From contig NZ_BMNZ01000002.1 of the NCBI RefSeq assembly GCF_014646815.1, forward strand, positions 310,001-374,000: DNA of 64,000 bases. Direction: 5' to 3'. Each line of letters opens with the position of its first letter. Positions within the stretch are counted from its first letter, which is position 1. Below the pieces are notes generated by a model. The model was not told the origin of the DNA. It did no database searches and saw only the letters and a list, made by a program, of their open reading frames with translations. The position numbers and the translations under genes were made by a program. This stretch comes from Terrabacter tumescens. Lineage in GTDB: Bacteria; Actinomycetota; Actinomycetes; Actinomycetales; Dermatophilaceae. Below are positions 1-62,404 of the stretch, one piece after another.

Positions 1-473
1 CCGGGGCCGAGGGGGTGGCCGGCTCCGCACTGCGTCGTGCGGCCCGTACCGGTGAGGCGTATGCCGTCGCGCGCGTCTGCGACGTCCCCACCGTCGTGCC
101 CACGCTCCTCGGCAAGGTCGAGTTCGAGATGGGCGAGGAGGGTCGTGAGCGCGACGTGCTGACGCACCTGCTGCGCCTCGCGGTCGCCGAGACCTACCGA
201 GCGCGCCTGTCAGGCCTCGACCTGACCGGCTTCACCGACCTCTTCGCCGAGGGTGCCGTCGTCGAGACCGGAGAGCTCGTGCCCGGCGCCGACCTGCTCG
301 CCCAGGTGGGCCCGATCTCGGGGCTGTCCAAGGTGCTCGACCGGCTCGGCCACGGCGACGACGCGACGCCGGGACAGGTCGCGGCGGCCATCGAGTTCGT
401 CCTCGAGGGCCTGCACCTGACCCGACGCATCGACAAGGACTCCGTCGCCGGCCGCACGGTCTACGGGGCGTAG
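1..473 (+). CDS. Mg-chelatase-like AAA ATPase, C-terminal part (5' end outside window)
   Basis: The frame is open from the first bases, so this is the last ~157 residues of a longer protein. The sequence is the helical lid and C-terminal region of the BchI/ChlI-like AAA+ ATPases that actinobacteria encode directly before a VWA protein (the Rv0958/Rv0959-type pair). No Walker motif is visible because that half lies upstream. The stop is 3 bases before the GTG of the VWA gene, so the two are almost certainly co-transcribed and translationally coupled. Known for the family: MoxR/chelatase-type ATPases act with VWA proteins as chaperones or metal-insertion machines. The actual substrate is unknown here. 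A GTATGCC motif copy lies at 59-65 and is read with the codon TAT for Tyr. Confidence 0.75.
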   Translation, partial: GAEGVAGSALRRAARTGEAYAVARVCDVPTVVPTLLGKVEFEMGEEGRERDVLTHLLRLAVAETYRARLSGLDLTGFTDLFAEGAVVETGELVPGADLLAQVGPISGLSKVLDRLGHGDDATPGQVAAAIEFVLEGLHLTRRIDKDSVAGRTVYGA

Positions 474-476
474 GTC

Positions 477-2588
477 GTGCCGATGACACCGCCGATGCCA
501 CCCAGAGGTCCGGGCGAGGGCGGTGACGTGCACGGGCGCTTCCGCTACACGCCGTGGCACGGCGGGCCCGACCCGCTCGCGCCGCCGTTCGACGTGCGCT
601 CCGCCCTCGACGAGGTGGGCCAGGACGTCCTGGCCGGTGGCTCGCTGCGCGAGGCGCTGCGCGAGCTCATGCGACGCGGCATGGATGGGCGCCGCGGCCT
701 CGACGACCTCGCCGACCGCGTCCGCCGGCTGCGGGAGGCCGCGCGCCGCCGTGGCGACCTCGGCGGCACGCTCGACCAGGTGCGCGCGATGCTCGACCAG
801 GCCCTCGCCGAGGAGCGCGACACCCTCGCCGGCGAGTCCGGCGACGACGCCCGCCTCGCGGAGATGGACCTCGCGACGATCCCCGACGACGTCGCCGGCG
901 CCGTGCGCGCGCTCGGGGACTACGCGTGGCACTCGCCCGAGGCGCAGCAGACCTTCGAGCAGATCCAGCAGATGCTCCAGCGCGAGGTCGTCGGCGCGCA
1001 GTTCGAGGGCCTCAAGCAGGCGCTGTCGGGCAACGACCCGCAGGCCATGCAGGCGGTCAAGGACATGCTCGCCGACCTCAACCAGCTGCTCGCCGCGCAC
1101 GCCCGCGGGGAGGACACCGAGGACCAGTTCCGCGACTTCATGGACAAGCACGGCGACCTCTTCCCGGAGCAGCCCGGATCCGTCGACGAGCTCATCGACG
1201 CCCTCGCCCGGCGCCAGGCCGCGGCCGACCGGCTGATGGCCTCGCTGACCCCCGAGCAGCGCGAGCAGCTCGGCCAGCTCATGTCCGACGCCCTCGGCGA
1301 CCCCGACCTCGCCTCGCAGATGGCGCAGCTCTCGGACAACCTCCGGGCGCTCCGGCCGGGCCTCGACCGCCGCAGCCCGGTGCAGCAGGGGCAGGGCGAG
1401 CCGATGGGCTACGGGGACGCCGTCGGCGCGGTGGCCGAGCTCGCCGACCTCGAGCAGCTCGGCGAGCAGCTCGGACAGGGCTACTTCGGCGCCACCCTCG
1501 ACGACGTCGACGTCGAGCGCCTCGAGCAGTACCTCGGCGCCGACGCCGCCCGCGACATGGAGGCGCTGCGCCAGCTCGAGCGCGAGCTCGAGCGGCAGGG
1601 CTACGTCTCGCGCGGCGACGACGGCCTGCGCCTCACGCCGCGGGCCGTGCGGCGGCTGGGGGAGACGGCGCTCAAGCGGGTCTTCGAGCGCGTCGAGGCA
1701 GCGGGACGCGGTGACCACGACGACCGCGCCGCCGGTCAGGCCGACGAGCTGACGGGCCTCAGCCGGCAGTGGGAGTTCGGCGACGAGCTGCCCATCGACA
1801 CGGTCCGCACCGTCTCCAACGCATTGCAGCGCAACGCCCGAGGGCGTGGAACTGGGCACTCCACCACGAGCGGGTTGCCCCCCACCCCGTCGAGTGCCCA
1901 TTTCCTGACGGGTCCGGGCGACCCGGCATTCCGGCGCAGAGCGCCGGCTCCAGGGAGCGGCGGGGTGGAGCTGCTCGTCGAGGACTTCGAGGTCGCCGAG
2001 ACGGAGCGGCGGGCCGTCGCCGCGGTCGCTCTGTGCGTCGACATGTCCTTCTCGATGATGCAGGAAGGGCGGTGGGGGCCGATGAAGCAGACGGCGCTCG
2101 CGCTCTCGCACCTCGTGCAGACCCGCTTCCGGCACGACGCGCTGCAGATCATCGGCTTCAACCTCACGGCGCGGAAGCTGACGCCCACCGAGCTCACCGA
2201 GGCCGAGCCCGAGTGGGTGCAGGGCACCAACCTCCAGCACGCCCTGATGCTCGCGTCGCGGCACCTGCGCCGGCACCCCGACGCCGAGCCGGTCGTCCTC
2301 GTCGTCACCGACGGTGAGCCGACGGCGCACATCGAGATCGACGGGCGGCCGACCTTCCACTGGCCCGCGACGCAGCAGACCGTGCGTGCGACGGTCGCCC
2401 AGGTCGACGAGCTGCGACGTTCCGGCGCCCAGCTCAACATCTTCATGCTCGGCGACGACCCCGGGCTCGCACGGTTCGTCGACGCCGTGGCGCGCCGGGC
2501 GGGTGGTCGGGTCTTCACGCCCGACATCGCGCGGCTCGGTGAGTACGTCGTCGCCGACTACCTCCGCACCCGTCGCGGGCGGCGCTGA
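477..2588 (+). CDS. VWA domain protein, partner of the upstream AAA ATPase
   Basis: 703 residues from a GTG three bases after the ATPase stop; an in-frame ATG two codons later is an alternative. Residues 1-450 are charged and helical, and the C-terminal ~190 residues form a von Willebrand A domain. The MIDAS motif D-M-S-F-S is at 522-526 and V-T-D-G-E at 610-614, so metal binding looks intact. Length and order match the Rv0959-type partner of Mg-chelatase-like ATPases; the protein is presumably cytoplasmic, as there is no signal peptide. Odd point: the linker just before the VWA domain (about residues 457-477) is encoded by DNA resembling the intergenic GTCGAGTG palindrome found elsewhere in the window (arms at 1848-1864 and 1889-1905), apparently an in-frame repeat insertion. 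Confidence 0.85.
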   Translation: MPMTPPMPPRGPGEGGDVHGRFRYTPWHGGPDPLAPPFDVRSALDEVGQDVLAGGSLREALRELMRRGMDGRRGLDDLADRVRRLREAARRRGDLGGTLDQVRAMLDQALAEERDTLAGESGDDARLAEMDLATIPDDVAGAVRALGDYAWHSPEAQQTFEQIQQMLQREVVGAQFEGLKQALSGNDPQAMQAVKDMLADLNQLLAAHARGEDTEDQFRDFMDKHGDLFPEQPGSVDELIDALARRQAAADRLMASLTPEQREQLGQLMSDALGDPDLASQMAQLSDNLRALRPGLDRRSPVQQGQGEPMGYGDAVGAVAELADLEQLGEQLGQGYFGATLDDVDVERLEQYLGADAARDMEALRQLERELERQGYVSRGDDGLRLTPRAVRRLGETALKRVFERVEAAGRGDHDDRAAGQADELTGLSRQWEFGDELPIDTVRTVSNALQRNARGRGTGHSTTSGLPPTPSSAHFLTGPGDPAFRRRAPAPGSGGVELLVEDFEVAETERRAVAAVALCVDMSFSMMQEGRWGPMKQTALALSHLVQTRFRHDALQIIGFNLTARKLTPTELTEAEPEWVQGTNLQHALMLASRHLRRHPDAEPVVLVVTDGEPTAHIEIDGRPTFHWPATQQTVRATVAQVDELRRSGAQLNIFMLGDDPGLARFVDAVARRAGGRVFTPDIARLGEYVVADYLRTRRGRR
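1848..1905. repeat. GTCGAGTG-type palindromic repeat inside the VWA gene
   Basis: Left arm GGAACTGGGCACTCCAC and right arm GTCGAGTGCCCATTTCC are imperfect inverted repeats of the type seen as intergenic hairpins at 45392-45486. Here they sit in the coding frame and supply a low-complexity linker between the helical part and the VWA domain. Confidence 0.6.
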
Positions 2589-2660
2589 GGGGTGCCGAAC
2601 GGCGCTGGGGGCGCGTCAATTCGGTCGCTCGAGGGTGGCGGTCCCTGTCATCGTGACGGC

Positions 2661-3425
2661 ATGGCACGAGGTCACGACGCGCGGCTGGACCGCATCGAGG
2701 CGTACTACGACTGCGTGCCGCGCGCCGTCGCCTCTGCCGAGGAGGTCGGGCCCTTCACGCTCTTCGTCGCCGACGAGGGCACGGGGTGGCAGTTCTACGC
2801 GCGGCCGCGCCTGGGTGGCCGGGGCGTCTTCACGCCCGAGGACGTATGCCGTGTGCTCGCGCGCCAGCAGCAGCTCGGGGTGCCGCGGGCCATCGAGTGG
2901 GTCGACGAGGTCACCCCGTCGCTGCTGCCCGCGGTGCGCGCGGCCGGTCACGAGCCGCACCTCTACCCGTTGCTCGTGATGCCGGCCGACGTGGTCGTGG
3001 CGCCGGACCCGCGGGCCCGGGCGCTGCAGCCTGCCGAGCCGCACCTCTCGCTCGCCCTGGGCTCGGTGTCGGCGGGGTTCGCCGGGCACGACGAGGTGAA
3101 GCCGAAGGACCCGGGGCGGCGCCCCGAGCTCATGGAGCGCGGCGACCTCGTGGTCGTCGCCTCGTTCGAGGACCACCGTCTGTGCGGCGCGGGGTCGGCG
3201 GCTCCCCGCGGCGACGTCGCCGAGCTGATGGGGATCGCGGTGCCGCCCGGTCACCGGGGACACGGTCACGGGACGGCGATCACGAGCACGCTCGTCGCCT
3301 CGTGCCGCGAGCGCGGCGTCGACACCGTCTTCCTGTCGGCAGGGTCCGACGCCGCGGCCGACATCTACCGCCGCGTGGGCTTCGTCGACGTCGGCACGGC
3401 CTGCATCCTCGGCCTCGACGACTGA
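2661..3425 (+). CDS. GNAT family N-acetyltransferase
   Basis: 254 residues from the ATG at 2661, chosen because the frame open from 2592 has no protein-like sequence before it. The C-terminal half shows the GNAT acetyl-CoA fold: a beta strand with VAELMGIAVPP, then the pyrophosphate-binding loop HRGHGHGTA and a final VGFVDVG segment (roughly residues 190-250). The N-terminal ~120 residues are a domain common to some actinobacterial GNATs (around GWQFYARPRLG). The substrate cannot be inferred. It follows the VWA gene by about 70 bases in the same direction and converges on the decayed phosphotransferase. A GTATGCC copy is at 2844-2850. Confidence 0.8.
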   Translation: MARGHDARLDRIEAYYDCVPRAVASAEEVGPFTLFVADEGTGWQFYARPRLGGRGVFTPEDVCRVLARQQQLGVPRAIEWVDEVTPSLLPAVRAAGHEPHLYPLLVMPADVVVAPDPRARALQPAEPHLSLALGSVSAGFAGHDEVKPKDPGRRPELMERGDLVVVASFEDHRLCGAGSAAPRGDVAELMGIAVPPGHRGHGHGTAITSTLVASCRERGVDTVFLSAGSDAAADIYRRVGFVDVGTACILGLDD

Positions 3426-3427
3426 GG

Positions 3428-4200: not shown

Positions 4201-4303
4201 GGGCGAGCATGCCGACTCGGTGGAGCGGGCTCAACCGGTGATGCGGGTGGTCATTCATGGGCGGGACGGGGCGGGACGGGACGGGACGGGACGCCAGTGA
4301 TGC

Positions 4304-5203
4304 TCAGACCTTGGCGGGGCGGAAGCCGGCGGCCTCGGCGTCGGCCATCGTCGCGAAGCACTGCTCGGGCTTGGTGACGTTGTAGTAGCGGTCGGTCGGC
4401 TCGTGGGCGATCATCGAGCCCTCGTTGCCCTTGACCGGTCGCGACTGCGGGCAGGGGTACTTGTCGCCAGCCTGGGGCCAGGTGCCGGCGAGGCCGTTGC
4501 CACTCGTGCCGCCCGACGTGCTGCCGGCGTTCGGGTCGGCACAGGCGGCCTTCGGGCTCGCGGCGTCGGCGCGCACGTAGGCACCCTCGCGCGGATGGGA
4601 CCCGTAGCCGTCCCGCGAGTCGTAGCGGGCGACGGCATACCCCTGCTTGATGAGGCGCAGCCCGGCGTCGACACCGTTGACGTCGACGTAGCGCAGCGCT
4701 CGGCCATAGCGGTCGACGTCGGTCCGGGCACCCGGCGTCAGGGTGACCCGCTGGCCGCCGATGATGCCGCGCAGGGCGTTGCGGGCCTCGGTGAAGCCGC
4801 ACTGACCCGTCTCCGGGGTGTCGATGCCGATGACGCGGACTTTCTCGGTCACGCCGCCACGTGAGGCCCAGATCGTGTCGCCGTCGACGACCTTGGTCAC
4901 GACCCACGTCGTGGCGGCAGAGGTGGCTTTCGTGGTGCTCTTCGTCGCGGCCTTCGACGTCGTCCCGGTCGTCGCCGGCACTGTCGCCGGGGCCTTCGCG
5001 GTCGGCGTCGTCGAGGTGGTCGCGGGCGCGGGAGGGGCTGTCGCCCGGGACGCTTGCGGCGCCGTGGTGCGGGTGACCGTGACGAGCGGCTCGGGCCCCG
5101 ACCCGGCGAGGGCCACGTCGCCGGACCCCCGCGTCGCGTTGCCGCCGATCGCGGCCAACGCCACGAGGGCGGCGATCGTGACGAGTCCCTTGGTCCTGCG
5201 CAT
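4304..5203 (-). CDS. secreted thermonuclease-like (SNase) protein with C-terminal zinc/excalibur-like tail
   Basis: 299 residues. Residues 6-22 are a hydrophobic signal or anchor segment after MRRTKG. A Thr/Ala/Pro-rich linker follows to about residue 93, and then a staphylococcal-nuclease fold with VVDGDTIWA, VRVIGIDTPETGQ and DRYGRALRYVDV, which hold the usual Asp/Arg/Glu catalytic positions. The last ~45 residues (KGNEGSMIAHEPTDRYYN...CFATMADAEAAGFRPAK) match the short tail domain often found at the end of actinobacterial secreted nucleases. Likely role: extracellular Ca-dependent nucleic acid cleavage. It is divergent from the DUF1801 gene over a 135-base gap. A GTATGCC copy (minus strand) is at 4634-4640. 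Confidence 0.85.
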   Translation of the reverse strand: MRRTKGLVTIAALVALAAIGGNATRGSGDVALAGSGPEPLVTVTRTTAPQASRATAPPAPATTSTTPTAKAPATVPATTGTTSKAATKSTTKATSAATTWVVTKVVDGDTIWASRGGVTEKVRVIGIDTPETGQCGFTEARNALRGIIGGQRVTLTPGARTDVDRYGRALRYVDVNGVDAGLRLIKQGYAVARYDSRDGYGSHPREGAYVRADAASPKAACADPNAGSTSGGTSGNGLAGTWPQAGDKYPCPQSRPVKGNEGSMIAHEPTDRYYNVTKPEQCFATMADAEAAGFRPAKV

Positions 5204-5338: not shown

Positions 5339-5737
5339 ATGGCCGAGGCAGAGACGACACCCGCGATGGCGCCCGCGACGAAGGCCACGGCGGCGCCGAC
5401 GTCGGTGACGGCATACCTCGACGGGTTTCCGGCCGAGCAGCGCGAGGTGCTCGAGCAGGTGCGCGCAGCGATCCTGCGGGGCGTGCCGGGTGGCGAGGAG
5501 AAGATCCGCTACGGCATGCCGGCCGTGATGTTCGCCGACCGCTACGGCCTCCACTTCGCGGGATGGAAGAAGCACGTCGGCCTCTACCCCGTCGGCGAGC
5601 TCGACCCGGACCTGGAGGCCGAGGTCGCGCCGCACCGGACAACCAAGGACACGGTGCGGTTCTTCTACAAGGACCCGGTGCCCTACGACCTCGTCGAACG
5701 GATCGCCCGCGCGCTCGCGGCCCGCCACTCCAGGTGA
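5339..5737 (+). CDS. DUF1801 (iron chaperone/YdhG-type) protein
   Basis: 132 residues from ATG preceded by GAGGGGGA. The core (YLDGFPAEQREVLEQVR, KIRYGMPAVMF, FAGWKKHVGLYPVG, TKDTVRFFYKDPVPYDLV) is the DUF1801 fold related to bacterial frataxin-like and iron-chaperone annotations. The biochemical function of the family is poorly established. A second member of the family is encoded at 42958-43329. The gene is monocistronic and convergent with the DUF427 gene 27 bases downstream. The GTATGCC motif at 5410-5416 forces a GCA codon before TAC. Confidence 0.85.
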   Translation: MAEAETTPAMAPATKATAAPTSVTAYLDGFPAEQREVLEQVRAAILRGVPGGEEKIRYGMPAVMFADRYGLHFAGWKKHVGLYPVGELDPDLEAEVAPHRTTKDTVRFFYKDPVPYDLVERIARALAARHSR

Positions 5738-6516: not shown

Positions 6517-7866
6517 CTAAGCGGTGCGGACCTCGGCGAGGTCGGCGTCGGCGGGTGCGGTGGTCGGAGCGGTGCGGCCGCGTGCCGCGTGGCGGGCGAG
6601 GTCCGCCACGACCTGGGCGGCCTTGCGCCGGCTCGGCATGAACCGCAGGAAGAACGTCAGCCGCAGCACCCACGCGACCCAGCCGGTGAACGGAATGCCG
6701 TAGAGCTCGGAGATCGATCGGCCGAAGCCGAAGGACGCCGCTTGGCCGAGGCCGCGGTACGCGAACGGCCGGGTCGGGCGACCACGCAGCGTCCGCGCGA
6801 GGTTGCGGCCGACGTGCTCGCCGCCCTTGATCGCCCACAGCGCGTTGGCCGGCACGGGCTCGCCGCTCGTCGGGTGGACGACGCACGCGGCGTCACCGGC
6901 GGCCCAGACGCCGTCGACGACCGACAGGTCGGGCCGTGTCACGAGCCGGCCCCGGGGGTCGCGGTGCGCGTCGAGGCCGGGGACGTGGACGGGCCGCTGG
7001 CCGATCGTCGCGATGACGGTGCTCGCCGGGAGGGCCGTGCCGTCGGAGAGGTATGCGTGGTCCTCGGTCACCGAGGCGAGGCGCACTCCCAGCCGGACGC
7101 GGACACCGAGCCGCTTCAGCTCCCGCTCGGCCCGGCGTGCCAGACGGGGCTGGTCGTCGCGCAGCTCGGGAAGGATGCCGTCGCCCGAGTGGACGAGCTC
7201 GACACGGACCCGCGCGCCGCCGAGGTCGGCGGCCGCCGCAGCCATCTCGACGCCGGCCATGCCGCCTCCGGCGACGAGCACCGTGTGCCGGCGCAGCCCG
7301 CGGTGGGCGGCTGCCGCGCGGACGCGCTCGGCCAGCACGGCGATGTCTCCGGGGGCGCGCAGCGTGAAGCCGTGCTCGGCCAGTCCCGGCACCGTGGTCG
7401 CTGGCTCGCGGCCGCCGGTGCCGACGACGAGCGCGTCGTAGTCGAGGACCCGTTCCGTGCTCGACGCGCCGGACTCGCCGGACTCGCCGGACTCGCCGGA
7501 CCCGCTGGTCCCGCCGTCAGCGCCGGACGCGGCGGCGAGCCGATAGCGGACGACACGGCGCTCGGCGTCGATCGAGGTCACCCGCCCGAGGACGACGTGC
7601 GCGTGCGGCATCGCCTCGACGAGGGGAGTCCGGGTGCGGTCGTAGGGCAGCAGGCCCGCGAGCACCTCGCCCGTGAAGCCATGGAAGCTGTGGGCGTCGT
7701 CGGTGCTGATGACGACGACCTGGAAGTCGCCGCGGCGGATGGCACGTCCGGCGTGACGCATCAGACCGGCATACGCGTGGAGGGTGACGTAGCCGCCGCC
7801 GAGGAGGACGACGCGGTGGCTGGCGCGGTGGCCAACTCCGTCGCCACCGCGGGCGAGGGTCGTCAC
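6517..7866 (-). CDS. NAD(P)/FAD-dependent oxidoreductase (NDH-2-like)
   Basis: 449 residues from the GTG at 7864-7866, which overlaps the TGA of the upstream gene (GTGA, tight coupling). Rossmann motifs: HRVVLLGGGYVTLHAYAGL at the N-terminus (FAD) and HTVLVAGGGMAGVEMA in the middle (NAD(P)H), then GVWAAGDAACV, the usual FAD/quinone-site motif of pyridine nucleotide-disulfide oxidoreductases. The C-terminus is hydrophobic and basic (WVAWVLRLTFFLRFMPSRRKA), consistent with membrane association as in type II NADH dehydrogenases. A Ser-Gly-Glu linker made of near-perfect repeats (7480-7510) is inserted before the YDALVVGTGG motif. Partnered with an acyl-ACP-reductase-like gene. The electron acceptor is unknown. 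Confidence 0.85.
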   Translation of the reverse strand: MTTLARGGDGVGHRASHRVVLLGGGYVTLHAYAGLMRHAGRAIRRGDFQVVVISTDDAHSFHGFTGEVLAGLLPYDRTRTPLVEAMPHAHVVLGRVTSIDAERRVVRYRLAAASGADGGTSGSGESGESGESGASSTERVLDYDALVVGTGGREPATTVPGLAEHGFTLRAPGDIAVLAERVRAAAAHRGLRRHTVLVAGGGMAGVEMAAAAADLGGARVRVELVHSGDGILPELRDDQPRLARRAERELKRLGVRVRLGVRLASVTEDHAYLSDGTALPASTVIATIGQRPVHVPGLDAHRDPRGRLVTRPDLSVVDGVWAAGDAACVVHPTSGEPVPANALWAIKGGEHVGRNLARTLRGRPTRPFAYRGLGQAASFGFGRSISELYGIPFTGWVAWVLRLTFFLRFMPSRRKAAQVVADLARHAARGRTAPTTAPADADLAEVRTA

Positions 7867-8927: not shown

Positions 8928-9088
8928 GTGGTGCTCCTGAGGGGTCTGCGTGTGCCGGGTGGCGCGGGTCCGCCGCATCGTGGTGCGTGGGGTCGGCGCC
9001 GTTGCAGGAGAGGAGGAGCGGACGGAAGGGGTGATACCTCGCGAAGGGCAGCGGACGGCATACGTCCTCGGATCTGGGTACGCGTGCC

Positions 9089-9983: not shown

Positions 9984-11083
9984 CTAGGGCGCGGCGGGAC
10001 CACTGAGGGTGAGGCCGAGCCACGCAGCGAGGTCGGCGATCTCGCGGTGGACGGCCGTCGTGATCGCCTTGGTGAAGCGGACGTCCTCGTGGATGGCGTT
10101 GACGACGAGGGTGCCGGCCTTGCGGTCGGCCTGGGCGTCGAGCTTCCCGACGAGCCGGTCGTGGTGCAGGATCGGCAGCGCGAAGTAGCCCCAGCGGCGC
10201 TGGGGCTTGGGCTTGTACATCTCGAGGATGTACTCGAATCCCCACAGCTGCTCGGCGCGGGCCCGGTCGTGGATCAGCCGGTCGAAGGGGCTCAGCAGGG
10301 CGGTGCGCCCACGGAAGTCGTCGACGACGTCGAGGTATGCCGGGTGGACGCGCCACGTGCCCGGCACCCCTTCGACCTCGGCGGGCTCACCCGCCTCGCC
10401 GACGAAGGGACCCTCGCCCGGCATGACGGTGCCGCTCGAGCGGGCGATGCCGAGGGCGGCGAGGCGGCGCTCGTTGCGGTGGGCGATGGCCTGCTCGAGG
10501 GTGAGCCGCGGCAGGTCGGGCGGGTAGACGCGCCCGGGGAGGTCGAAGTAGCGCTGACGCCCCTTGCGGCCCGCGATGGCGACCTCGCCGCGCAGGGCCA
10601 GGGCCAGGGCATCTTGGTGATGTTGCGGTTGTTGGTCCAGCCGGTCGAGGGCCACGGGACGACGCTGGTGTCGGGGATGTCGCGCGAGAGCAGCGGCCCG
10701 TCGGCCTCGAGCGTGTCGAGGATGTCGCGGCGGAAGGAGTCGTTGGCCTCGAGCCAGTCGGCCATGAAGCGGTAGGGCTCGGCCTCGCGGACCTCGGCGA
10801 GCACGGCCGGGACGTCCTTGGGGCTGCGCACGTAGGCGACGGTCTCGACGAGGGAGCGGTCCTGCTCGATGGCCGCGGTGAGGTGGGCGGGGTCGTAGGT
10901 GCGGCCGAGCCGGCTCCAGAGCACGAGGTCGGCGCTGGGGGCGATGGCCGCGGTCGGGTCGATCTGCAGGATGGTCAGCCGCTCGACCGTCGCGACGAGG
11001 TCGGTGGGGCGCGGCCGGTCGAGCAGCTGCGCGTGCACCGCGATGCGGCGTGCGCGCTCGACCGTGAGCTGGTGGGCCACCAT
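9984..11083 (-). pseudogene. YcaQ-type winged-helix DNA glycosylase family gene with frameshift
   Basis: Two adjacent frames together give one protein of the winged helix DNA-binding/crosslink-repair glycosylase (YcaQ) family. The N-terminal part MVAHQLTVERARRIAVHAQLL...LQIDPTAAIAPSADLVLWSRLG...GWTNNRNITKM is in one frame. The C-terminal part ALALRGEVAIAGRKGRQRYFDLP...LLSPFDRLIHDR...RWGYFALPILH is in another. The total length, 1100 bases, is not a multiple of three. The switch lies at about 10593-10615, next to a triplicated hexamer (CAGGGC x3). The start ATG at 11081-11083 is preceded seven bases upstream by TAGGGT, a leaderless promoter. Either a real inactivating indel or a sequencing error. 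Confidence 0.75.
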
Positions 11084-15446: not shown

Positions 15447-15564
15447 CGGGGCGGCCACGCGGCACGGACCCCGCCCGTCACGGCATACGCCCGCCGGTGG
15501 TCAGGGGAGCGGTCCCGAGGTGCTGCACTGCCACGATCCCCGGTGAGCCCACCGCCCGTGAAGG

Positions 15565-16051: not shown

Positions 16052-16120
16052 GCCGCGCCACCCCCACCGATGGCGTATGCCGTGTGGCCGGGTCGGTGGG
16101 TGGGTCGACGCGCGCGACCG

Positions 16121-26068: not shown

Positions 26069-26138
26069 GCCGTGCTCCTGCCGTTCGGGAGTGCTGTTCG
26101 CGTATGCCGTGTGCTCGCCTCCGCGCGGAGGCGTGGTC

Positions 26139-27170: not shown

Positions 27171-27175
27171 GAGGT

Positions 27176-30268: not shown

Positions 30269-30321
30269 GACGCCACCTCTGACGTCCGCGAGGGCATGGC
30301 GTATGCCGTGTGGCCGGCCCC

Positions 30322-35346: not shown

Positions 35347-35392
35347 ACGGCATACGACCCATGCTCTCGTACGGCCTGCTCTCGTATGCCGT
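35347..35392. repeat. inverted pair of GTATGCC motifs
   Basis: ACGGCATACGA (35347-35357) and TCGTATGCCGT (35382-35392) form an 11-bp inverted repeat between the truncated transposase and the potassium channel gene. Confidence 0.6.
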
Positions 35393-37971: not shown

Positions 37972-38037
37972 CGTCACCAGGCCGTATGCCGCGTGGCCGG
38001 GCCGTGTCAGGCCGTGTCAGGCCGTGTCAGGCCGGCA

Positions 38038-40415: not shown

Positions 40416-40726
40416 TTTGATCTCTCTCGTCAGGCGGTGACAGGACTAGGCGGTCCACCTCACGAGAGCCCGACCTGGTGGCCGGACTTGGGAAGAGTAA
40501 ACGAGTCAACTGGCAAATGTCACGCCACGGTAACGACGACGCGCGGGGAACGCCCCTGAATGTCCGGAGTGCGTGCCTATACCCGCGCTTTACCTTGCGT
40601 TGGCTGAGACGTGGATCACAGTGGGTCGTCGTATCCCGAGATCCTCTCCCGGGTAGGCCGCCGGTCCCGTCAGCCGGCGCTGGGAGGGGCCCGACGGCAT
40701 ACCTCGCAGTGAGCGGGCGCGTGGCC
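40416..40726. other. promoter-side gap upstream of the riboswitch, no gene
   Basis: 311 bases with no protein-like frame. AT content is higher than average; the minus strand holds TTGCCAGTTGACT near 40510 and several possible -10 boxes, none paired convincingly. A GTATGCC copy is at 40696-40702. Confidence 0.4.
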
Positions 40727-44206: not shown

Positions 44207-44291
44207 GGGTATGCCGTGTGCTCGGGTTCGCGGGTCACGTCCGGACTTCGGAGCGCGAGCGTCCACGGCTTGGTGCGCACACGGCATACCC
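44207..44291. repeat. inverted pair of extended GTATGCC motifs
   Basis: GGGTATGCCGTGTGC (44207-44221) and its complement GCACACGGCATACCC (to 44290) form a 15-bp perfect inverted repeat about 55 bases apart in the gap between the hydrolase and the alcohol dehydrogenase gene. Confidence 0.7.
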
Positions 44292-49646: not shown

Positions 49647-50363
49647 TCAGACCGTCTCGGCGGACTCGGGCCGAGTGAGCGGCGCGAGCGCGATGAGCAG
49701 CACGAGGGAGCCGAGCGGCCCCAGCCCCCAAGGGAGCACGAGCAACAGCGCGCCGATGGCTGCGAGTGCGAGTGCGCCCACCGGCATACGACCCTCGAGC
49801 GCCAGCGCGACGAGAACGGCCGCGAGTGCCAGACCGGTGAGCACGGCACCGCCCGACGCGAGGACCGACGGGATCGTGTCGTCGAGCAGCCCGGTGAGCC
49901 GGCCCAGCCAGACCGCGCCCGTGGCGCCGGCGCCGAAGGCCGCGAGCAGCGCCGTCGGCACGGCGAGCGGCAGGTGGCGCAGCCGGACGCCGAGGCTCGT
50001 CGTGAGCCACGCGAACCCGGCGACGGACAGCACGAGCAGCACCCCCGCGGCGACGGACAGCGCGCCGTCGGCGTGCGCGGCGGCCAGGCCTCCGAGCCCA
50101 CCGAGGTTGCCGAGGCCGCCTGCGTCGTCGAGCGTGTCGAGGCCGTCGACCCACTCGACGATCCCGTGGGCGAAGAGCAGCAGGGGCGCCAGCAGCGCGA
50201 GCAGCGGCACCCGGTCGGACGACACCTGGCCCGCCGTCGCCGCAGTCGCGCTCGGGTGGGACGTCGTCGGCCGGGAGGTGGTCGTATGCGTGTTCGCCGG
50301 TCGCGTCGTCACCGTGGCCGTCTGCATCGGCACCCGTGCGGGGGCCAGCGTGCTCGTCGTCAT
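49647..50363 (-). CDS. multi-TM membrane protein of unknown function
   Basis: 238 residues from ATG at 50363 (the open frame starts 12 codons earlier with GTG). After a Thr-rich cytoplasmic head of ~55 residues, five or six helices (LLALLAPLLLFAHGIVEW, SVAAGVLLVLSVAGFAWL, PLAVPTALLAAFGAGATGAVWLG, ASGGAVLTGLALAAVLVALAL, ALALAAIGALLLVLPWGLGPLGSLVLLIAL). No family recognised. A divergent gap (~200 bases) separates it from the PGWP gene. Confidence 0.65.
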   Translation of the reverse strand: MTTSTLAPARVPMQTATVTTRPANTHTTTSRPTTSHPSATAATAGQVSSDRVPLLALLAPLLLFAHGIVEWVDGLDTLDDAGGLGNLGGLGGLAAAHADGALSVAAGVLLVLSVAGFAWLTTSLGVRLRHLPLAVPTALLAAFGAGATGAVWLGRLTGLLDDTIPSVLASGGAVLTGLALAAVLVALALEGRMPVGALALAAIGALLLVLPWGLGPLGSLVLLIALAPLTRPESAETV

Positions 50364-52948: not shown

Positions 52949-53357
52949 CGCATCCCCCTCGACCACCCGCGCAGCTGCCCGATCCCCCCGAGACACCTGC
53001 GACCTCGTTTGCACCATAACTGCTACCCATGCGTACTGGCCCCGAAACCCATTGGGATCTGGTCGAATACGGCATACCGTCGGAGGTGCGCTCTTGTGGA
53101 CGAGGTTGTCCGGGCGGCGGTCGAGGGTGAGGCGCCGAACCACCTGACGCTGCCGTCCGAACGAATCCTGTTGTGTCATAGTGCATTTGAAGCCACTCGG
53201 GGGTGTGGGACGGGGGTGGTGGCGTGGCTGGGTCCAGGCCTGACGTGAGTCCTGATGTCGGTGATCTGTGCCATCGAATGCGAAAAAGCGTCCTGCACAG
53301 TGCATTTCACCCCAAAGTGGGTGAAAGATCCGTAGCCATCAGCGCCGGGTCGGCGAC
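52949..53357. other. gap without convincing gene
   Basis: 409 bases. Contains GTATGCC at 53071 and two GTGCATTT octamers (53181-53188, 53300-53307), a word also present at 50465-50472. A plus-strand frame from about 53096 to 53248 is open but has no gene-like features. Confidence 0.5.
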
Positions 53358-54322: not shown

Positions 54323-54552
54323 CTGCCCGCGCTCGCCCTGGGTTGCCGGCGACGGCGAGGGTGCACACGGCATACGCCCTCCTGAAACAGCTCGTCACGT
54401 GCCTTCGACGCGAGCCGACCACGGGCGCGAATCCGGCGCTACGCTGCGACGACGGGCTCGCGGACTTCCGGACCATCCCTCCGCCGCGTGCCCGCGAGCG
54501 CGACGTTGCCCGGCGGGGAGGGCCATGAGGGGTGGCCGAGGGGGGCCGTGCT

Positions 54553-56487
54553 GTGACCATTCGCTTCAACCCGCCGCCGGGGTGGCCGATGCCACCTGCG
54601 ACGTGGGTGCCGCACGACGAGTGGCTGCCCGACCCCGACTGGCCCGAGCCCCCTGCTGACTGGACGTTCTGGTCCGCGACCGCGCCCCGGCCAATCGCTG
54701 GTGCGGATCATGGCGGTGATGACGGGGGACGCGACGGCGGGCGCGGTGGCCGCGGTGGCAACCGGCTCGGCCGCGTGTCGTTCCCGATCGCGACGGTGGC
54801 CGCGCAGTCGACGGTGTCGCTCGCTGCGCTCTTCCCCGAGCGCGGCCGCTCGGGCGGCACGACGAACGGCTACGGCACCTACGCCGGCGCGGTCGCCGGA
54901 GCCGGCGGGGCGACCGGCCCGACCGGCCCGACCAAGGCGGGGCGGGAGTACTACCAGCCGGCAAGCGCGCGCTCGGGCTCAGCCACCCACGTCCTCGCCG
55001 GGGGCTCGCCGGGCCAGGGGGGTGGGCCCAACGGCTTCGGCCCCGGCGGGTCGGTGCTCGACGGCGCCGGAAGCGTGCTCGCCGACGTCGTCGACGTCGC
55101 CGACGGCCTTGGGGCCTGGGGCATCAGGACCGAGAGCACTGGGACCCAGACCACTGGGACCGGGCGCCCAGGGACCGGAACCTCAGCGACCGATGCCGAG
55201 GAGACGGCGAAGACGCCGGGCATCCGGCTCTCACCGATCCTGCGACTCGTGGCCCACCCGTCCGGCCTCCGGGCCCAGTTCCGCGTCGGCGGCCCGGTCG
55301 CGGCCGCCCTCGCCGACGTCATGACGCCGGCCATCGAGGCAGCGACCCCCGGCCTCGCCGATCGCAGCGGTGACGAACGCGCGTCGGCCGAGCGAGCAGG
55401 CGGCCACGGACGGGGCCGGCGCGGGGGCGGGCTTCGGCGGCTGTTCGGGGCGCGCCGGGGCGCGAGCGGGAGCCCCGCTGAACTCGGCGCTGGTGTCGGA
55501 GACGCGGTCGCGGGTCCCGCCGGCCTGCGAGCCGCAGCCGGTGCGCTCTCGATCCACGAGCTCGCGCGCCGGGCGCTCGCCGCGCGCCGGGACGGCGACC
55601 GGGACGAGGCGCTCGCCGTCGACCGTGACCTCTGCAGCCTGCACCGCCATACCTTCACCGCGATCCATCCGCCCGCGGTGGAGCCGTTCGTGCCGGTCAC
55701 GCCGGCGGAGGAGTCGGCTATCCGCGGCAAGCTGCTCTCGGCGACGGGCGCCACGGCGAAGGGCCTTTCACGCGCCGACAGCGCTGAGCTCAAGGCGCTC
55801 GCCGCCGAGCGTGCCGCGGCCGTCGTCCGCGCGAGCAACGTCGCGCGCCACGTCTTCGCCGACCGCCGGGCAGCCCTCGCCACCGGCGCCTGGCAGCTGC
55901 TCGAGGCGCACGACCCGGCGGCTGTCGTCGCGGTCGTCGACGAGGCGTTGCGCCGGTCGGGCAGCGACGTCACGTGCCTCGACGCCGGCACCGACCCGGT
56001 CACCCACCGCGGCTACGTCACCGTGCTCGTCCGCTTCCCGACCATCGGGATCGTCGCCGAGGAGCAGCGTGCGGCCGGTCCCTCCGGTCGCGCCGCGTGG
56101 CGCCCGCGGACGGCGGGGGAGCGCAACACCGTGTATGCCGCGGGCCTGGCCTCCACGGTCCTCGCCGCGGCCAAGCACGTCGTCACCATCGCCCCCGCCA
56201 CCGACGACGTCAACGTCGTCGTCGTCCGTCCGACCCGCAACGGTCGAGGGGTCGTGCCGGTCTACGTCGGCCGGCTCGACCGTGAGGACGTGACGTTGCG
56301 GCATCCCGACGCCGACCCGGGGCCGCTCGTGACGAGCTCGGCGGTGCCACACGGCATACGCGTCCACGGGCCCGACCGTGAGGTCACCGCGCTCGAGCAC
56401 GTGGCCGACGTCGACGGCGCGCTGCGCGAGATCGTCGACGCGTGCCGGGCGGCCGACGCTAGAGGTCGGACCGGACCAGGCGCCTGA
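54553..56487 (+). CDS. PGWP-domain fusion protein (paralogue of the split pair at 50560/50972)
   Basis: 644 residues from GTG 54553, chosen because it aligns with the start of the split paralogue. N-terminal Pro/Trp repeats (TIRFNPPPGWPMPPATWVPHDEWLPDPDWPEPPADWTFW), a Gly/Thr-rich linker with tandem-like DNA (GTQTTGTGRPGTGT), and a C-terminal part similar to the 384-residue protein: RALAARRDGDRDEALAVDRDLCSLHRHTFTAIHPPAVEPF..., CLDAGTDPVTHRGYVTVLVRFPTIGIVAEE, ERNTVYAAGLASTVLAAAKHVVTIAPATDDVNVVVVRP. One protein here versus two genes at 50.6-52.1 kb suggests the parts work together. Function unknown. GTATGCC copies at 56133 and 56353. Confidence 0.75.
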   Translation: MTIRFNPPPGWPMPPATWVPHDEWLPDPDWPEPPADWTFWSATAPRPIAGADHGGDDGGRDGGRGGRGGNRLGRVSFPIATVAAQSTVSLAALFPERGRSGGTTNGYGTYAGAVAGAGGATGPTGPTKAGREYYQPASARSGSATHVLAGGSPGQGGGPNGFGPGGSVLDGAGSVLADVVDVADGLGAWGIRTESTGTQTTGTGRPGTGTSATDAEETAKTPGIRLSPILRLVAHPSGLRAQFRVGGPVAAALADVMTPAIEAATPGLADRSGDERASAERAGGHGRGRRGGGLRRLFGARRGASGSPAELGAGVGDAVAGPAGLRAAAGALSIHELARRALAARRDGDRDEALAVDRDLCSLHRHTFTAIHPPAVEPFVPVTPAEESAIRGKLLSATGATAKGLSRADSAELKALAAERAAAVVRASNVARHVFADRRAALATGAWQLLEAHDPAAVVAVVDEALRRSGSDVTCLDAGTDPVTHRGYVTVLVRFPTIGIVAEEQRAAGPSGRAAWRPRTAGERNTVYAAGLASTVLAAAKHVVTIAPATDDVNVVVVRPTRNGRGVVPVYVGRLDREDVTLRHPDADPGPLVTSSAVPHGIRVHGPDREVTALEHVADVDGALREIVDACRAADARGRTGPGA

Positions 56488-58819: not shown

Positions 58820-58905
58820 CCCGCAGCCTGACACGCAGCCTCACGCCGGCCCGACATCGGCGGCCGCCTGTCGTCAGCGGGCCCGGTCTTTGACAGGGTG
58901 GTCGC

Positions 58906-61272
58906 ATGAGGACCGACCACTTCATCCGATTCGAGCGCGTCGACTCCGTCGAGGAGGCCGAGCACGGGCTGCTGGCGCGGTTGCACGGTGAGCTGCTGCG
59001 CATCGACGCGGTGCGCCCCGACGTCGTGCGCCTCCAGCTGAGCCGGGGCGGGTCGTTCGACCCCAAGCCGACGTATGCCGTGTGCGTCGACCCGCTCGCG
59101 ACCCACCCCGACGAGCCGGTGACCTGGCGGGCCGAGCGTGAGGACGTGGACGGTGAGGACGTGTGGCGGCTCGTGACGGACGAGCTCGTCGTGACGCTGT
59201 GGCTCGACCCGTTCCGGATCGACGTGCACCGCGCCGACGGCTCAGTCGTGCTCGAGTCGGTCCCGGACGCCGAGGGCCGCTACTGGACCTACGCGACGCT
59301 CAACGACGCGTGGACGACGCGGCGCCGGATCGGGCGTGACGACGCGATCTACGGCCTCGGCGAGAAGGGCGGTCACCACAACCGCCGCGGCCGCGACTTC
59401 ACGATGTGGAACACCGACGTGCTCAACGAGCACGCGACGGCCGAGTTCCGGGCCGGCCTGGCGGCAGACGACCCGCGCGCCGACATGTCGAGCACCGAGT
59501 TCGACCCGTACTACGTGACGATCCCCTTCTTCTACCAGCGCGACGCCGAGACCGGTTCTGCCGTGGGCTCGTTCGTCGACAACGGCTACCGGGGGGAGTA
59601 CGAGTTCAGCCGCGACGACGAGTACCGCGTCACCTTCCACGGTGGGCAGTGGACCGAGTACGTCTTCGGCGGTCCGTCGATGGCGAGCATCCTGGAGCGC
59701 TACACGTGGCTGACGGGCAGGGCGTCGCTGCCGCCGATCTGGGCGCTGGGCTACCACCACTGCCGGTGGCACGCCTACAAGCAGCAGGACATCGAGGTCA
59801 TCGCGAGGCGCTACCGCGACGACGAGTTCCCCTGTGACGCCATCTGGCTCGACATCGACTACATGGACGGCTATCGCGTCTTCACGTGGGACTCCGAACG
59901 CTACCCGGACCCGGCCGGCATGCTCAAGGGCCTGGCCAACCAGGGCTACCGCGCGATCTCGATCGTCGACCCCGGCGTCAAGCACGACCCCGGCTACGCC
60001 GTCTACGACGACGGTCTCGAGCAGGACGTCTTCTGCCGCACCGAGGGTGGCGACACCTACGTCGGGCAGGTCTGGCCGGGCAACACCGTCTTCCCCGACT
60101 TCGCGACGCCTGAGGCGCGCTCGTGGTGGGGTGCGCTCAACGCCAAGCACGTCGAGTCGGGCCTGGCCGGCATCTGGAACGACATGAACGAGCCCGCGAC
60201 CGGCGAGATCCCCTCTCACACCATGCTGTTCGACAAGGGTCGCGCGTCGCACGACCGCTTCCACAACCAGTACGCGCTGCTCATGGCGATGGGCACCATC
60301 GAGGGGCTCAAGGCCGCCCGCCCGCAGGACCGCACCTTCATCCTGTCCCGCGCCGGCTTCGCCGGCATCCAGCGCTACGCCGCGAACTGGATGGGTGACA
60401 ACCAGGCCCGCTGGGACCACCTGTGGGTCAGCATGCCGATGGCGTGCGGCTTCGGCCTGTCGGGCCAGCCCTTCGTCGGCGCCGACATCGGCGGCTTCCA
60501 GGGCGACACGAACCCCGAGCTGTTCCTGCGCTGGATGCAGATGGGGGCGCTGACTCCCTTCTGCCGCAACCACTCCGAGACCAACAACATCGACCAGTAC
60601 CCGTGGTCGTTCGGTCCCGAGATCCACGACCTGGCCCGTGAGGCGGTGCGCCTGCGCTACCGGCTGCTGCCCTACATCTACTCCGCCTTCGTCCGGGCGA
60701 GCGAGACGGGCGAGCCCGTGCAGCGCCCGCTCGTCCTCGACCACCAGAGCGACCCGCAGGTCGTGGACATCGACGACCAGTACCTCTTCGGCCGCGACCT
60801 GCTCGTCGCGCCGGTCACCGAGCAGGGCCAGACCTCGCGCAGCGTCTACCTCCCCGAGGGCGACTGGTACGACTGGCACACCGGCGAGCTGCACCCCGGC
60901 GGCCAGCGGATCACCGTCGAGACGCCGCTCGAGCGGATCCCGCTCTACGCCCGCGCCGGCGCCGCGATCCCGATGTGGGCCGAGGCGCCCGCCTCGACCG
61001 ACGGCCACCACCCCGAGACCGTCGAGCTGCACGTCTTCGACCCCGTCGTCGACGGCCGCTGGGAGTCGCTCCTCGTCGAGGACGACGGACTCACGGTGGC
61101 GGCCGAGGGCTGGGGTTCGGGTATCGGCGCCGCCGAGCCCGAGCGCCTGACCACCACCGTCGTCGTCACCCGCGCCGGCGGCGAGGTCACCGTCGAGCAC
61201 GAGACCACCGGGCGGGGGTATGCCGGCCACGCGCGGACCCGCTTCGACGTCGTGCGCCACGCCCCGGCGTGA
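58906..61272 (+). CDS. glycoside hydrolase family 31 (alpha-glucosidase/xylosidase type)
   Basis: 788 residues from ATG. (beta/alpha)8 barrel with IWLDIDYMDGYRVFTWD, the nucleophile D426 in GIWNDMNEPA, and the acid/base D498 in RYAANWMGDNQARWDHL; N-terminal beta-sandwich has AIYGLGEKGGHHNRRGRDFTMWNTD, C-terminal beta-domains end near DGLTVAAEGWG. GH31 cleaves alpha-linked glucose or xylose from oligosaccharides; no signal peptide, so cytoplasmic. The sugar-binding lipoprotein and DeoR regulator 1.3-2.5 kb downstream suggest a link to alpha-glucoside uptake (inference). GTATGCC at 59073 and 61218. Confidence 0.9.
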   Translation: MRTDHFIRFERVDSVEEAEHGLLARLHGELLRIDAVRPDVVRLQLSRGGSFDPKPTYAVCVDPLATHPDEPVTWRAEREDVDGEDVWRLVTDELVVTLWLDPFRIDVHRADGSVVLESVPDAEGRYWTYATLNDAWTTRRRIGRDDAIYGLGEKGGHHNRRGRDFTMWNTDVLNEHATAEFRAGLAADDPRADMSSTEFDPYYVTIPFFYQRDAETGSAVGSFVDNGYRGEYEFSRDDEYRVTFHGGQWTEYVFGGPSMASILERYTWLTGRASLPPIWALGYHHCRWHAYKQQDIEVIARRYRDDEFPCDAIWLDIDYMDGYRVFTWDSERYPDPAGMLKGLANQGYRAISIVDPGVKHDPGYAVYDDGLEQDVFCRTEGGDTYVGQVWPGNTVFPDFATPEARSWWGALNAKHVESGLAGIWNDMNEPATGEIPSHTMLFDKGRASHDRFHNQYALLMAMGTIEGLKAARPQDRTFILSRAGFAGIQRYAANWMGDNQARWDHLWVSMPMACGFGLSGQPFVGADIGGFQGDTNPELFLRWMQMGALTPFCRNHSETNNIDQYPWSFGPEIHDLAREAVRLRYRLLPYIYSAFVRASETGEPVQRPLVLDHQSDPQVVDIDDQYLFGRDLLVAPVTEQGQTSRSVYLPEGDWYDWHTGELHPGGQRITVETPLERIPLYARAGAAIPMWAEAPASTDGHHPETVELHVFDPVVDGRWESLLVEDDGLTVAAEGWGSGIGAAEPERLTTTVVVTRAGGEVTVEHETTGRGYAGHARTRFDVVRHAPA

Positions 61273-61294
61273 CGGCAGCGGCCGCTGGGACGGG

Positions 61295-61331
61295 CCGAAC
61301 GGCATACGCCCCCATCGGGTATGCCGTTCGG
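61295..61331 (+). terminator. hairpin built from two inverted GTATGCC motifs
   Basis: CCGAACGGCATAC (61295-61307) and GTATGCCGTTCGG (61319-61331): 13-bp perfect arms, 11-base loop, 22 bases after the GH31 stop. No U-run. Probable terminator whose stem is the motif itself. Confidence 0.75.
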
Positions 61332-61399
61332 GATGTCCCGCTCGAGCGCCCACCCGGCGACCCTTGAGCGGGTGACCCCCGGACGGAAGACTGACGAGC

Positions 61400-62404
61400 A
61401 TGGCTGAAACGGCGCAGCAGGAGCAGGGCCAGAAGAGCGAGAGCCTCACCACCGTCCTCATCGCGCTGGCGGCCAACACGCTCATCGCGATCGCGAAGTC
61501 GATCGTCGCCGTCATCACCGGCTCGGCCTCGATGGTCGCCGAGGCGGCGCACTCGTGGGCCGACGCCGGCAACGAGATCTTCCTGCTCACTGCCGAGCGT
61601 CGCGCGGCCAAGCCGCGCGACGCCACGCACCCGTTCGGCTACGGGCGCGAGGCGTACGTCTGGTCGATGTTCGCGGCCTTCGGCCTCTTCGGCGCCGGCG
61701 CGGTCGTGTCGGTGTGGCACGGCATCTCGGTGCTCGGGCACGAGGAGCCGGAGACGTCGTACACGTGGGCGTATGCCGTGCTCGCCATCGCCTTCGTGCT
61801 CGAGAGCGTCTCGTTCGTGCAGGCCACGCGACAGACCCGGTCCGAGGCCAAAGCGCGCGGGCTGCGGCCGCTGAAGTTCATCGCCAACACCTCGAACCCG
61901 ACGCTGCGCGCGGTCTTCGCCGAGGACGCGGCGGCGCTCATCGGCCTGCTCATCGCCGGCATCGGGATCTTCCTGCACCAGGTCACCGGCAACGCCGTGT
62001 GGGACGCGGTCGGCTCGATCCTCGTCGGCCTGCTGCTCGGCGTCGTCGCGATCTTCCTCATCGGGCGCAACCGCGACTACCTCGTCGGCCAGGCCGTGCG
62101 GCCCGAGCTGTGGCGCCAGGCCTACGACGAGCTCAACGGCAGCGACGAGGTGGAGCGGGTGACGTTCCTGCACCTCGAGTTCGTCGGGCCGGGGCGCGTC
62201 TTCCTCGTCGCCGCCGTCGACCTGACCGGCGACGACACCGAGTCGCGCGTGGCCGGCCGGCTGGCCGAGCTGGGCCGCCTGATCGAGGAACGCGAGCTCG
62301 TCGAGCGCGCCATGATCACGCTGTCGCGCAGCGACGCCCCGACGCTCGACCCCGACGAGTCCGCGACGCCGGCGACCCGCCCGGCCGGCGGGCGCATGTC
62401 CTGA
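61400..62404 (+). CDS. cation diffusion facilitator (CDF) transporter
   Basis: 334 residues from ATG. Six helices; the metal site is in SMVAEAAHSWADAGNEIFLL (H-x-x-x-D type) in TM2 and an Asp-rich pattern in AVFAEDAAALIGLLIAGIGIFL in TM5; loop RPLKFIANTSNPTLR. A C-terminal cytoplasmic dimerisation domain (~70 residues). The divergence from the Zn-type HxxxD/DxxxD pattern makes metal specificity uncertain (Zn, Mn, Co). GTATGCC at 61771. Stands alone. Confidence 0.85.
   Translation: MAETAQQEQGQKSESLTTVLIALAANTLIAIAKSIVAVITGSASMVAEAAHSWADAGNEIFLLTAERRAAKPRDATHPFGYGREAYVWSMFAAFGLFGAGAVVSVWHGISVLGHEEPETSYTWAYAVLAIAFVLESVSFVQATRQTRSEAKARGLRPLKFIANTSNPTLRAVFAEDAAALIGLLIAGIGIFLHQVTGNAVWDAVGSILVGLLLGVVAIFLIGRNRDYLVGQAVRPELWRQAYDELNGSDEVERVTFLHLEFVGPGRVFLVAAVDLTGDDTESRVAGRLAELGRLIEERELVERAMITLSRSDAPTLDPDESATPATRPAGGRMS

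Follow-up and report, generated by a model that had tools for sequence, protein, structure and literature searches.

The stretch analysed here, a window of 64,000 nucleotides from the genome of Terrabacter tumescens (family Intrasporangiaceae, order Micrococcales; contig NZ_BMNZ01000002.1, positions 310,001 to 374,000), carries many copies of the word GTATGCC, both inside and between its genes. A preliminary description made from the letters of the window had listed about 40 copies, against about 6 expected by chance, and had compared the word to a DNA uptake sequence. We found that all 40 listed positions are exact, 21 of them reading GTATGCC and 19 GGCATAC, and the chance estimate agrees with our own base-composition expectation of 5.7 for both strands. 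Because G is the next base in 40 of 40 copies, we take the core to be the octamer GTATGCCG. Order-1, -2, and -3 Markov models predict 2.0, 2.6, and 4.1 copies of the 7-mer in the window, and order-4 and -5 models predict 20 and 38; judged on the window alone, the last two leave the 7-mer inconspicuous, since its sub-words are themselves made up largely of motif copies, 40 of the 42 TATGCC in the window belonging to it. Expectations below come from order-2 Markov models unless otherwise given, genes were called with a purpose-written simple codon-usage caller and no standard program, G-numbers denote sampled genomes (G000 being that of T. tumescens itself), and L-numbers denote 20-kb stretches.

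The heavy over-representation seen in the window extends to the whole genome, as the preliminary description had supposed. In 464 kb (window included), there were 247 copies of GTATGCCG compared to 7.5 expected, a 33-fold excess, and the other eighth bases occurred once (GTATGCCA), twice (the T variant), and once (the C variant). The complete 4.7-Mb genome contains 1158 forward and 1200 reverse copies, 2358 in total, while the reversed word, used as a control, occurs 111 and 88 times; a 904-kb sample contains 452 copies, 236 on the plus strand and 216 on the minus strand. An extended consensus had also been proposed. The 13-mer CGTATGCCGTGTG does occur 164 times, compared to 0 for its control, and the intergenic copies (n = 142) give a long form of approximately CGAKGGC-GTATGCCG-TGTGSC, with T, G, T, and G at bases 9 to 12 in 67%, 53%, 49%, and 80% of them. 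However, this 3' extension is mainly an intergenic feature, since coding copies (n = 310) keep little past the octamer except the T that follows it. The information spans about 7 bp 5' to about 6 bp 3' of the core. When the 24 single-mismatch words were counted in the 464 kb, 16 were below and 8 above expectation, with a large excess for only GGATGCCG (83 versus 46) and GTAGGCCG (45 versus 29). Because single-base variants are mostly not in excess, recognition appears to need all eight positions, and the flank would help where coding permits.

Within genes, the word is kept against codon preference, as had been noticed in the window for TAT (Tyr) and GCA (Ala). TAT was used in 195 of 235 word-permitting xxG-TAY-GCC-Gxx contexts compared to 58 of the 535 remaining Tyr-Ala contexts, GCA in 65 of 156 xCG-GCN-TAC contexts compared to 13 of 457 others, and ATA in 25 of 164 word-permitting contexts compared to 4 of 673 others. 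The word, which makes up 0.3% of coding DNA, holds 195 of the 359 TAT codons and 25 of the 47 ATA codons of called genes in the 904-kb sample. The Tyr-Ala frame is used by 195 of the 310 coding copies, and all six frames occur. These contrasts exclude an explanation by the Tyr-Ala dipeptide.

We also found that the word is denser between genes (1.26 copies per kb) than inside them (0.39 per kb), with 142 of the 452 copies in the 904-kb sample being intergenic. Gaps between convergent genes are the densest (2.03 per kb), divergent gaps have the lowest intergenic density (0.93 per kb), and copies between co-directional genes show no bias with respect to transcription (31 co-directional, 40 contrary). 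The number of close pairs, 60 bp apart or less, is near chance (18 versus 13.6 expected at random), so that the bias lies in their orientation: 17 of the 18 are inverted, 16 of those 17 are intergenic, and several in the 464 kb form perfect hairpins, which bears out the pairing reported for the window. The impression that many window copies are intergenic holds for 14 of the 40, the called genes carrying 19 in sense and 7 in antisense orientation (Table 1).

TABLE 1 Copies of the word in the 64-kb window, with the position of the octamer and its context
Sequence	Position	Strand	Context
GTATGCCG	59..66	+	coding, sense, Tyr-Ala frame
GTATGCCG(TGTG)	2844..2851	+	coding, sense, Val-Cys frame
GTATGCCG	4633..4640	-	coding, sense, Tyr-Ala frame
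GTATGCCG	5409..5416	-	coding, antisense (Ala GCA-Tyr)
GTATGCCG	7767..7774	-	coding, sense, Tyr-Ala frame
GTATGCCG	9056..9063	-	intergenic
GTATGCCG	10335..10342	+	coding, antisense (Ala GCA-Tyr)
GTATGCCG	12501..12508	+	coding, sense, Tyr-Ala frame
GTATGCCG	15481..15488	-	intergenic
long form GGCGTATGCCGTGTGGCCGG	16075..16082	+	intergenic
GTATGCCG	24264..24271	+	coding, antisense (Ala GCA-Tyr)
GTATGCCG	25378..25385	-	coding, sense, Tyr-Ala frame
long form GTATGCCGTGTG	26102..26109	+	intergenic
GTATGCCG	26849..26856	-	coding, sense, Tyr-Ala frame
GTATGCCG	27174..27181	+	overlaps called start codon, Met-Pro frame
GTATGCCG	27565..27572	+	coding, sense, Tyr-Ala frame
GTATGCCG	29044..29051	-	coding, sense, Tyr-Ala frame
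long form GGCGTATGCCGTGTGGCCGG	30301..30308	+	intergenic
GTATGCCG	30921..30928	-	coding, sense, Tyr-Ala frame
GTATGCCG	35348..35355	-	intergenic, inverted pair with 35384
long form GTATGCCGTGTG	35384..35391	+	intergenic, inverted pair with 35348
GTATGCCG	36313..36320	+	coding, antisense (Gly-Ile ATA)
GTATGCCG	37590..37597	+	coding, sense, Tyr-Ala frame
GTATGCCGCGTGGCCGG	37984..37991	+	intergenic
GTATGCCG	38694..38701	-	coding, sense, Tyr-Ala frame
GTATGCCG	40695..40702	-	intergenic
long form GTATGCCGTGTG	44209..44216	+	in called gene, antisense
long form GTATGCCGTGTG	44282..44289	-	intergenic
GTATGCCG	47522..47529	+	coding, sense, Tyr-Ala frame
GTATGCCG	47686..47693	-	coding, antisense (Ala GCA-Tyr)
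GTATGCCG	49782..49789	-	coding, sense, Met-Pro frame
GTATGCCG	53070..53077	-	intergenic
long form GTATGCCGTGTG	54368..54375	-	intergenic
GTATGCCG	56133..56140	+	coding, sense, Tyr-Ala frame
long form GTATGCCGTGTG	56352..56359	-	in called gene, antisense (Gly-Ile ATA)
GTATGCCG(TGTG)	59073..59080	+	coding, sense, Tyr-Ala frame
GTATGCCG	61218..61225	+	coding, sense, Tyr-Ala frame
GTATGCCG	61300..61307	-	intergenic, inverted pair with 61319
GTATGCCG	61319..61326	+	intergenic, inverted pair with 61300
GTATGCCG	61771..61778	+	coding, sense, Tyr-Ala frame

The copies are spaced more evenly than chance predicts. Counts per 5 kb had a variance-to-mean ratio of 0.62 (P = 1.4e-5), the lowest among 157 octamers of like abundance, itself included. 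In the 904-kb sample, there were 36 same-strand pairs 100 to 1000 bp apart compared to 99.6 expected, and 93 opposite-strand pairs compared to 101.5 expected; the even spacing comes from same-strand copies. Shuffling the strand labels with positions fixed gave 63.9 ± 5.8 same-strand pairs, with a minimum of 45 in 2000 shuffles. Of 419 neighbor pairs more than 100 bp apart, 267 lie on opposite strands and 152 on the same strand (P = 2e-8), while the opposite-neighbor fraction of 159 control octamers ranges from 0.37 to 0.55; the gene-strand bias of the coding copies would oppose such alternation. The same pattern was found in 41 20-kb stretches from 14 other genera, a pool that leaves out G033, G035, and four tad stretches of G047 and G060. 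These contained 61 same-strand pairs compared to 110.5 expected, 114 opposite-strand pairs compared to 121.1 expected, and 130 same-strand and 231 opposite-strand neighbors (P = 1e-7), with opposite neighbors outnumbering same-strand ones in 13 of the 14 genera. We observed no replichore polarity: each of the twelve 50-kb bins of a 600-kb contig contained a mixture of both strands, and both were present in 200 kb of G047. Thus, the near-equal strand split stressed in the preliminary description is correct overall, but strand matters locally.

The word is conserved among near relatives. Of the 51 T. tumescens copies that could be aligned at the comEC locus, 43 are identical in 8 relatives with 81 to 88% DNA identity. 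Across nine genomes (the T. tumescens comEC locus and 8 of 20 named loci), the word was kept in 399 of 529 cases over 72 ordered pairs, which are not independent comparisons, compared to 352 of 1696 for composition-matched octamers and 34% for octamers sampled every third base. With a looser alignment of ten loci, near relatives keep 5 to 8 of 8 sites, and the motif-free loci of Intrasporangium flavum and Kytococcus keep 0 of 3 (only 3 aligned) and 0 of 2, respectively.

The comparison with related genera called for by the preliminary description showed that the word is widespread in the family and patchy within it. Among the 117 genomes searched, 71 belong to the GTDB family, which is wider than the NCBI Intrasporangiaceae, and their copy numbers are bimodal. 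When one genome was taken per genus, 30 of 53 genera had at least 900 copies (939 to 4724), 19 had 120 or fewer (one of these, G034, has a dialect), and 4 lay between. The 46 genomes from other families of the order contained at most 167 copies, within about fourfold of controls (Micrococcus luteus was not searched by name). At the 20 named loci, the word was present in 6 to 16 copies in 13 of 14 Intrasporangiaceae loci (from Terrabacter, Terracoccus, Humibacillus, Intrasporangium, Pedococcus, Phycicoccus, and another member of the Intrasporangiaceae), and zero copies were found at those of I. flavum, Kytococcus, and five Geodermatophilaceae. The T. tumescens ComEC clusters with its counterpart from Terrabacter aerolatus (83% identical over the best segment). 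Presence of the word on the ComEC tree requires two label changes, so that a single gain plus a single loss would account for the named loci; the fork placing I. flavum has only moderate support, and Kytococcus sits on a long branch. In viral contigs, 89 stretches contain GCGTATGCCGTGTG, and the 80 that are listed hold 34 further core copies in 705 kb. We rejected these matches as chance, given the few further copies and the fact that no more than 2 of the 80 listed stretches have a GC content above 0.65.

Several genera carry dialects of the word. Flank dialects are GTATGCCGCTGGGCT in G023, in which CTG follows all 17 copies found in 40 kb, and GTATGCCGCTCAGC at the locus of Intrasporangium oryzae. 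Core dialects are GGATGCCG in G034 (43 versus 3.6 expected), GTATGCGG in G028 (16 versus 0.7 expected), and GTATG[CAG]CG in G011, G012, and G035. Dialect words also alternate between strands in G034 (12 same, 22 opposite), G028 (4 and 9), G035 (19 and 34), and G012 (17 and 29). When 40 kb was sampled from each of 16 other motif-poor genera (G009, G010, G016, G018, G021, G022, G027, G031, G032, G036, G045, G048, G049, G053, G057, and G064), we found no comparable word, barring G045, G031, G032, and G048.

The sampled genomes contain other repeated words as well. In G045, a motif-free genus (L109, L110), CGAAGGGG occurs 39 times versus 4.9 expected, on both strands and without strand alternation; it is a distinct abundant word and perhaps a further signal. 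In the motif-poor genera G048, G031, and G032, words of the GGCGTACG/GTACGCC type are over-represented, GGCGTACG occurring 33 times versus 4.2 expected in G048. We also observed a tandem repeat in G034 (L041/L042), made of roughly ten units of about 15 bp that read GCCGTTGCCGTGCGC or GCCGTTGCCGTGCTG; a spaced repeat in G011 (L063 to L065) that includes GTGCCACTCG, where 60 kb contained 17 copies of GTGCCACT and several of these were clustered in short arrays; and the palindrome CGCACGTGCG in G015 (L133/L134), found 14 times on both strands versus 0.4 expected in 40 kb.

On the strength of these sequence patterns, we consider GTATGCCG to be probably a DNA uptake sequence of the Intrasporangiaceae. 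Its abundance, strand symmetry, codon override, location, conservation in near relatives, and even spacing agree with what an uptake sequence predicts, as do its dialects and patchy absence, and com and tad genes are present. The T. tumescens genome encodes ComEA (HHH and SLBB domains) and ComEC, and one of its loci encodes Flp, RcpC, AAA_31 (TadZ-like), and T2SSE (TadA-like) proteins; ComEA/ComEC and Tad pili would thus stand in for the ComP and type IV pili of other uptake systems. From these features we infer an uptake function, a receptor, and a direction of action. A surface receptor would prefer DNA bearing the word; our guess is a Tad/Flp pseudopilin or a partner protein of that pilus. 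ComEA and ComEC would then bring in one strand, and recombination with DNA of kin would spread and maintain the word. Since repulsion over about 1 kb is confined to copies on the same strand, it is probable that each copy acts one-sidedly; each strand would then need a series of its own. Uptake or strand selection may thus start at the word and run one way, with an opposite-strand copy serving the other side. The fuller proposal, which we offer tentatively and hold to be possible rather than probable, is an independently evolved Tad-pilus system for uptake of self-DNA with a directional signal, in which every copy would serve about 1 kb of DNA to one side and the copies would form two interleaved, independent, and evenly spaced series, one on each strand.

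Several observations weigh against an uptake role or its directional form. Simple uptake of one copy per fragment predicts strand-blind repulsion, but the repulsion is strand specific. Alternation was not seen in G051, which carries GTATGCCG itself (12 same, 10 opposite), for the dialect word of G011 (24 and 22), or for GGTATGCC in G055 (10 and 11). Competence genes are indeed present, as the preliminary description would lead one to look for, but they do not separate motif-bearing from motif-free genera: ComEC was found in 111, HHH_3 (ComEA) in 115, TadE in 115, and T2SSF in 116 of the 117 genomes, and these proteins do not track the word because they are nearly universal in the order. The likeness to known uptake sequences that had been suggested holds for the sequence-level predictions that were tested and fails for homology to the Neisseria machinery, since ComP_DUS was found in 0 of the 71 family genomes (E ≤ 0.001; the 3 matches among the 117 genomes belong to other families) and PilM was not found in the T. 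tumescens genome. Distant motif-bearing genera keep few of the T. tumescens sites (I. oryzae 1 of 2, Pedococcus 0 of 3, Phycicoccus Soil802 0 of 3), so sites turn over between genera. With 5 copies in 76 kb, genes of the lowest GC decile are poor in the word, as foreign DNA would be. Codon score does not follow this pattern: the word is scarcest in the quarter of genes that score best (0.197 per kb). Of the two longest word-free stretches in the 904 kb (G000:C4:352326-365661 and C1:454918-467125), one ends near a phage-type integrase gene, and the other, the second-longest, is the cytochrome bc1/aa3 operon. We found no uptake or transformation data for the family among the papers listed.

Strand-specific redundancy within about 1 kb and an asymmetric 8-bp core could also belong to a Chi-like signal, which a helicase-nuclease entering from a double-strand end would read in one orientation, so that a nearby same-strand copy would be redundant. 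E. coli Chi (GCTGGTGG) is likewise an asymmetric, over-represented octamer. However, in 500 kb of K-12 we found Chi to be more weakly enriched (126 versus 40.9 expected, 3.1-fold), unequal between strands (86:40), and randomly spaced (variance/mean 1.05), without same-strand repulsion (17 pairs versus 17.9 expected), and the long-form flanks, intergenic excess, and patchy absence of the word are unlike Chi. RecC was not found in the T. tumescens genome (AddAB and AdnAB were not searched) and is present in G001, of the same genus; with one genome taken per genus, it is present in 6 of 30 motif-rich and 10 of 19 motif-poor genera (Fisher p = 0.028, uncorrected for kinship), being absent from 24 and 9, respectively. 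Loss of RecBCD, a nuclease that breaks down DNA as it enters the cell, would be in keeping with competence. We prefer uptake to a Chi-like role, which we regard as unlikely, because RecC is absent, the statistics of Chi differ, and the other features fit uptake.

Any coevolving DNA-binding protein could in principle give genome-wide presence, even spacing, dialects, and losses, so a site for a chromosome-organizing or segregation protein (KOPS/SRS-, matS-, or Noc-like) has to be considered. We judge it distinctly unlikely, as the word shows no polarity, its neighbors alternate (see above), and the inverted pairs at gene ends and the same-strand repulsion would be left unexplained. A methylation or restriction target would suit an asymmetric octamer, but restriction acts to deplete its target words rather than to enrich them. 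A bias of very-short-patch-type repair might instead create the word, and two possible source words are below expectation (GCATGCCG, 49 versus 77.5; GTGTGCCG, 24 versus 36.4); GTACGCCG is not depleted (43 versus 40.7), and such a bias would not yield even spacing, strand-specific repulsion, or intergenic excess, making this group of explanations very improbable. Least credible, to the point of being almost negligible, is an origin in the usage of codons or dipeptides, in a signal at the level of transcription, or in a family of dispersed repeats. The predominance of the Tyr-Ala frame among coding copies is what codon or dipeptide usage would give, but TAT is rare outside the word, six frames are used, and almost a third of the copies are intergenic. 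The orientation of intergenic copies between co-directional genes ignores transcription, and, unlike a REP/BIME-like family, the copies have no homology well beyond the core, the information running out about 7 bp to its 5' side and 6 bp to its 3' side. The three outcomes that the preliminary description had named as contrary to its proposal, a count near expectation, a Tyr-Ala dipeptide, and a single repeat family, are thus excluded.

If GTATGCCG is an uptake sequence, it would be an independent case in another phylum, in Gram-positive bacteria. The reason for uptake sequences is debated, with safe sex, drive, and receptor bias all proposed, and at least five dialects and many absences within one family would provide natural replicates for this debate. 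Kin-specific transformation would then operate across a large group of soil bacteria for which we found no study of it. The word would also suggest that the Tad pilus, or something close to it, includes a receptor with sequence specificity, and it would offer a practical tag for transforming Intrasporangiaceae. Among the papers listed, judged by title and the opening of the abstract, none reported an actinobacterial uptake sequence. Any model of uptake is quantitatively constrained by the strand-specific spacing, and if the directional reading is true, it would be genomic evidence of a directional uptake signal.

Natural transformation is known in the same order from Micrococcus luteus, which uses com genes and tad-1/tad-2 Flp pili, the kind of machinery also encoded in T. 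tumescens. Both tad clusters are described as required, and the accessible text of that study does not mention an uptake sequence (PMC4322843). A requirement for uptake sequences has been called unique to Neisseria and the Pasteurellaceae (PMC3630211).

The word resembles the Neisseriaceae DNA uptake sequence (DUS; AT-DUS 5'-AT-GCCGTCTGAA, receptor ComP) in copy number, lineage dialects, and intergenic inverted pairs. The DUS is reported in 943 to 5918 copies per genome, with eight dialects as well as DUS-free genomes in the Neisseriaceae (PMC3630211). It is described as strongly conserved in permissive core DNA, as the word is conserved here. In contrast, T. tumescens belongs to another phylum, has 72% GC, and lacks ComP_DUS and PilM; the CTG described as conserved in all DUS dialects is missing from the Terrabacter consensus, though present in the G023 dialect; and the strand-specific repulsion seen here is not mentioned for the Neisseriaceae DUS in the accessible text. 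The uptake signal sequence (USS) of the Pasteurellaceae (AAGTGCGGT / ACAAGCGGT) is described as having a short core with a weaker flank, like the word here, and as having two types and inverted pairs that serve as terminators. USS 8-mers are reported at 26 to 63 times expectation in five Hin-type genomes, 36 to 48 times in two Apl-type genomes, and 16 times in Haemophilus ducreyi (PMC1626085), and USS uptake peaks are described as centered on the USS, not one-sided (PMC7811141). The USS differs from the word in that the core here is neither AAGTGCGGT nor ACAAGCGGT, the host differs, and the Pasteurellaceae flanks are AT-rich. Some letters are shared: ATGCCGT is common to GTATGCCGTG and the Neisseria AT-DUS 12-mer, and TGCGGT is common to the G028 dialect (GTATGCGGT, GTATGCGGTG) and the Haemophilus USS. 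This sharing, noted after the fact, is probably chance, the machinery being unrelated. So, as far as these genomes indicate, the word would work like an uptake sequence, yet would belong to neither the Neisseria nor the Haemophilus system.

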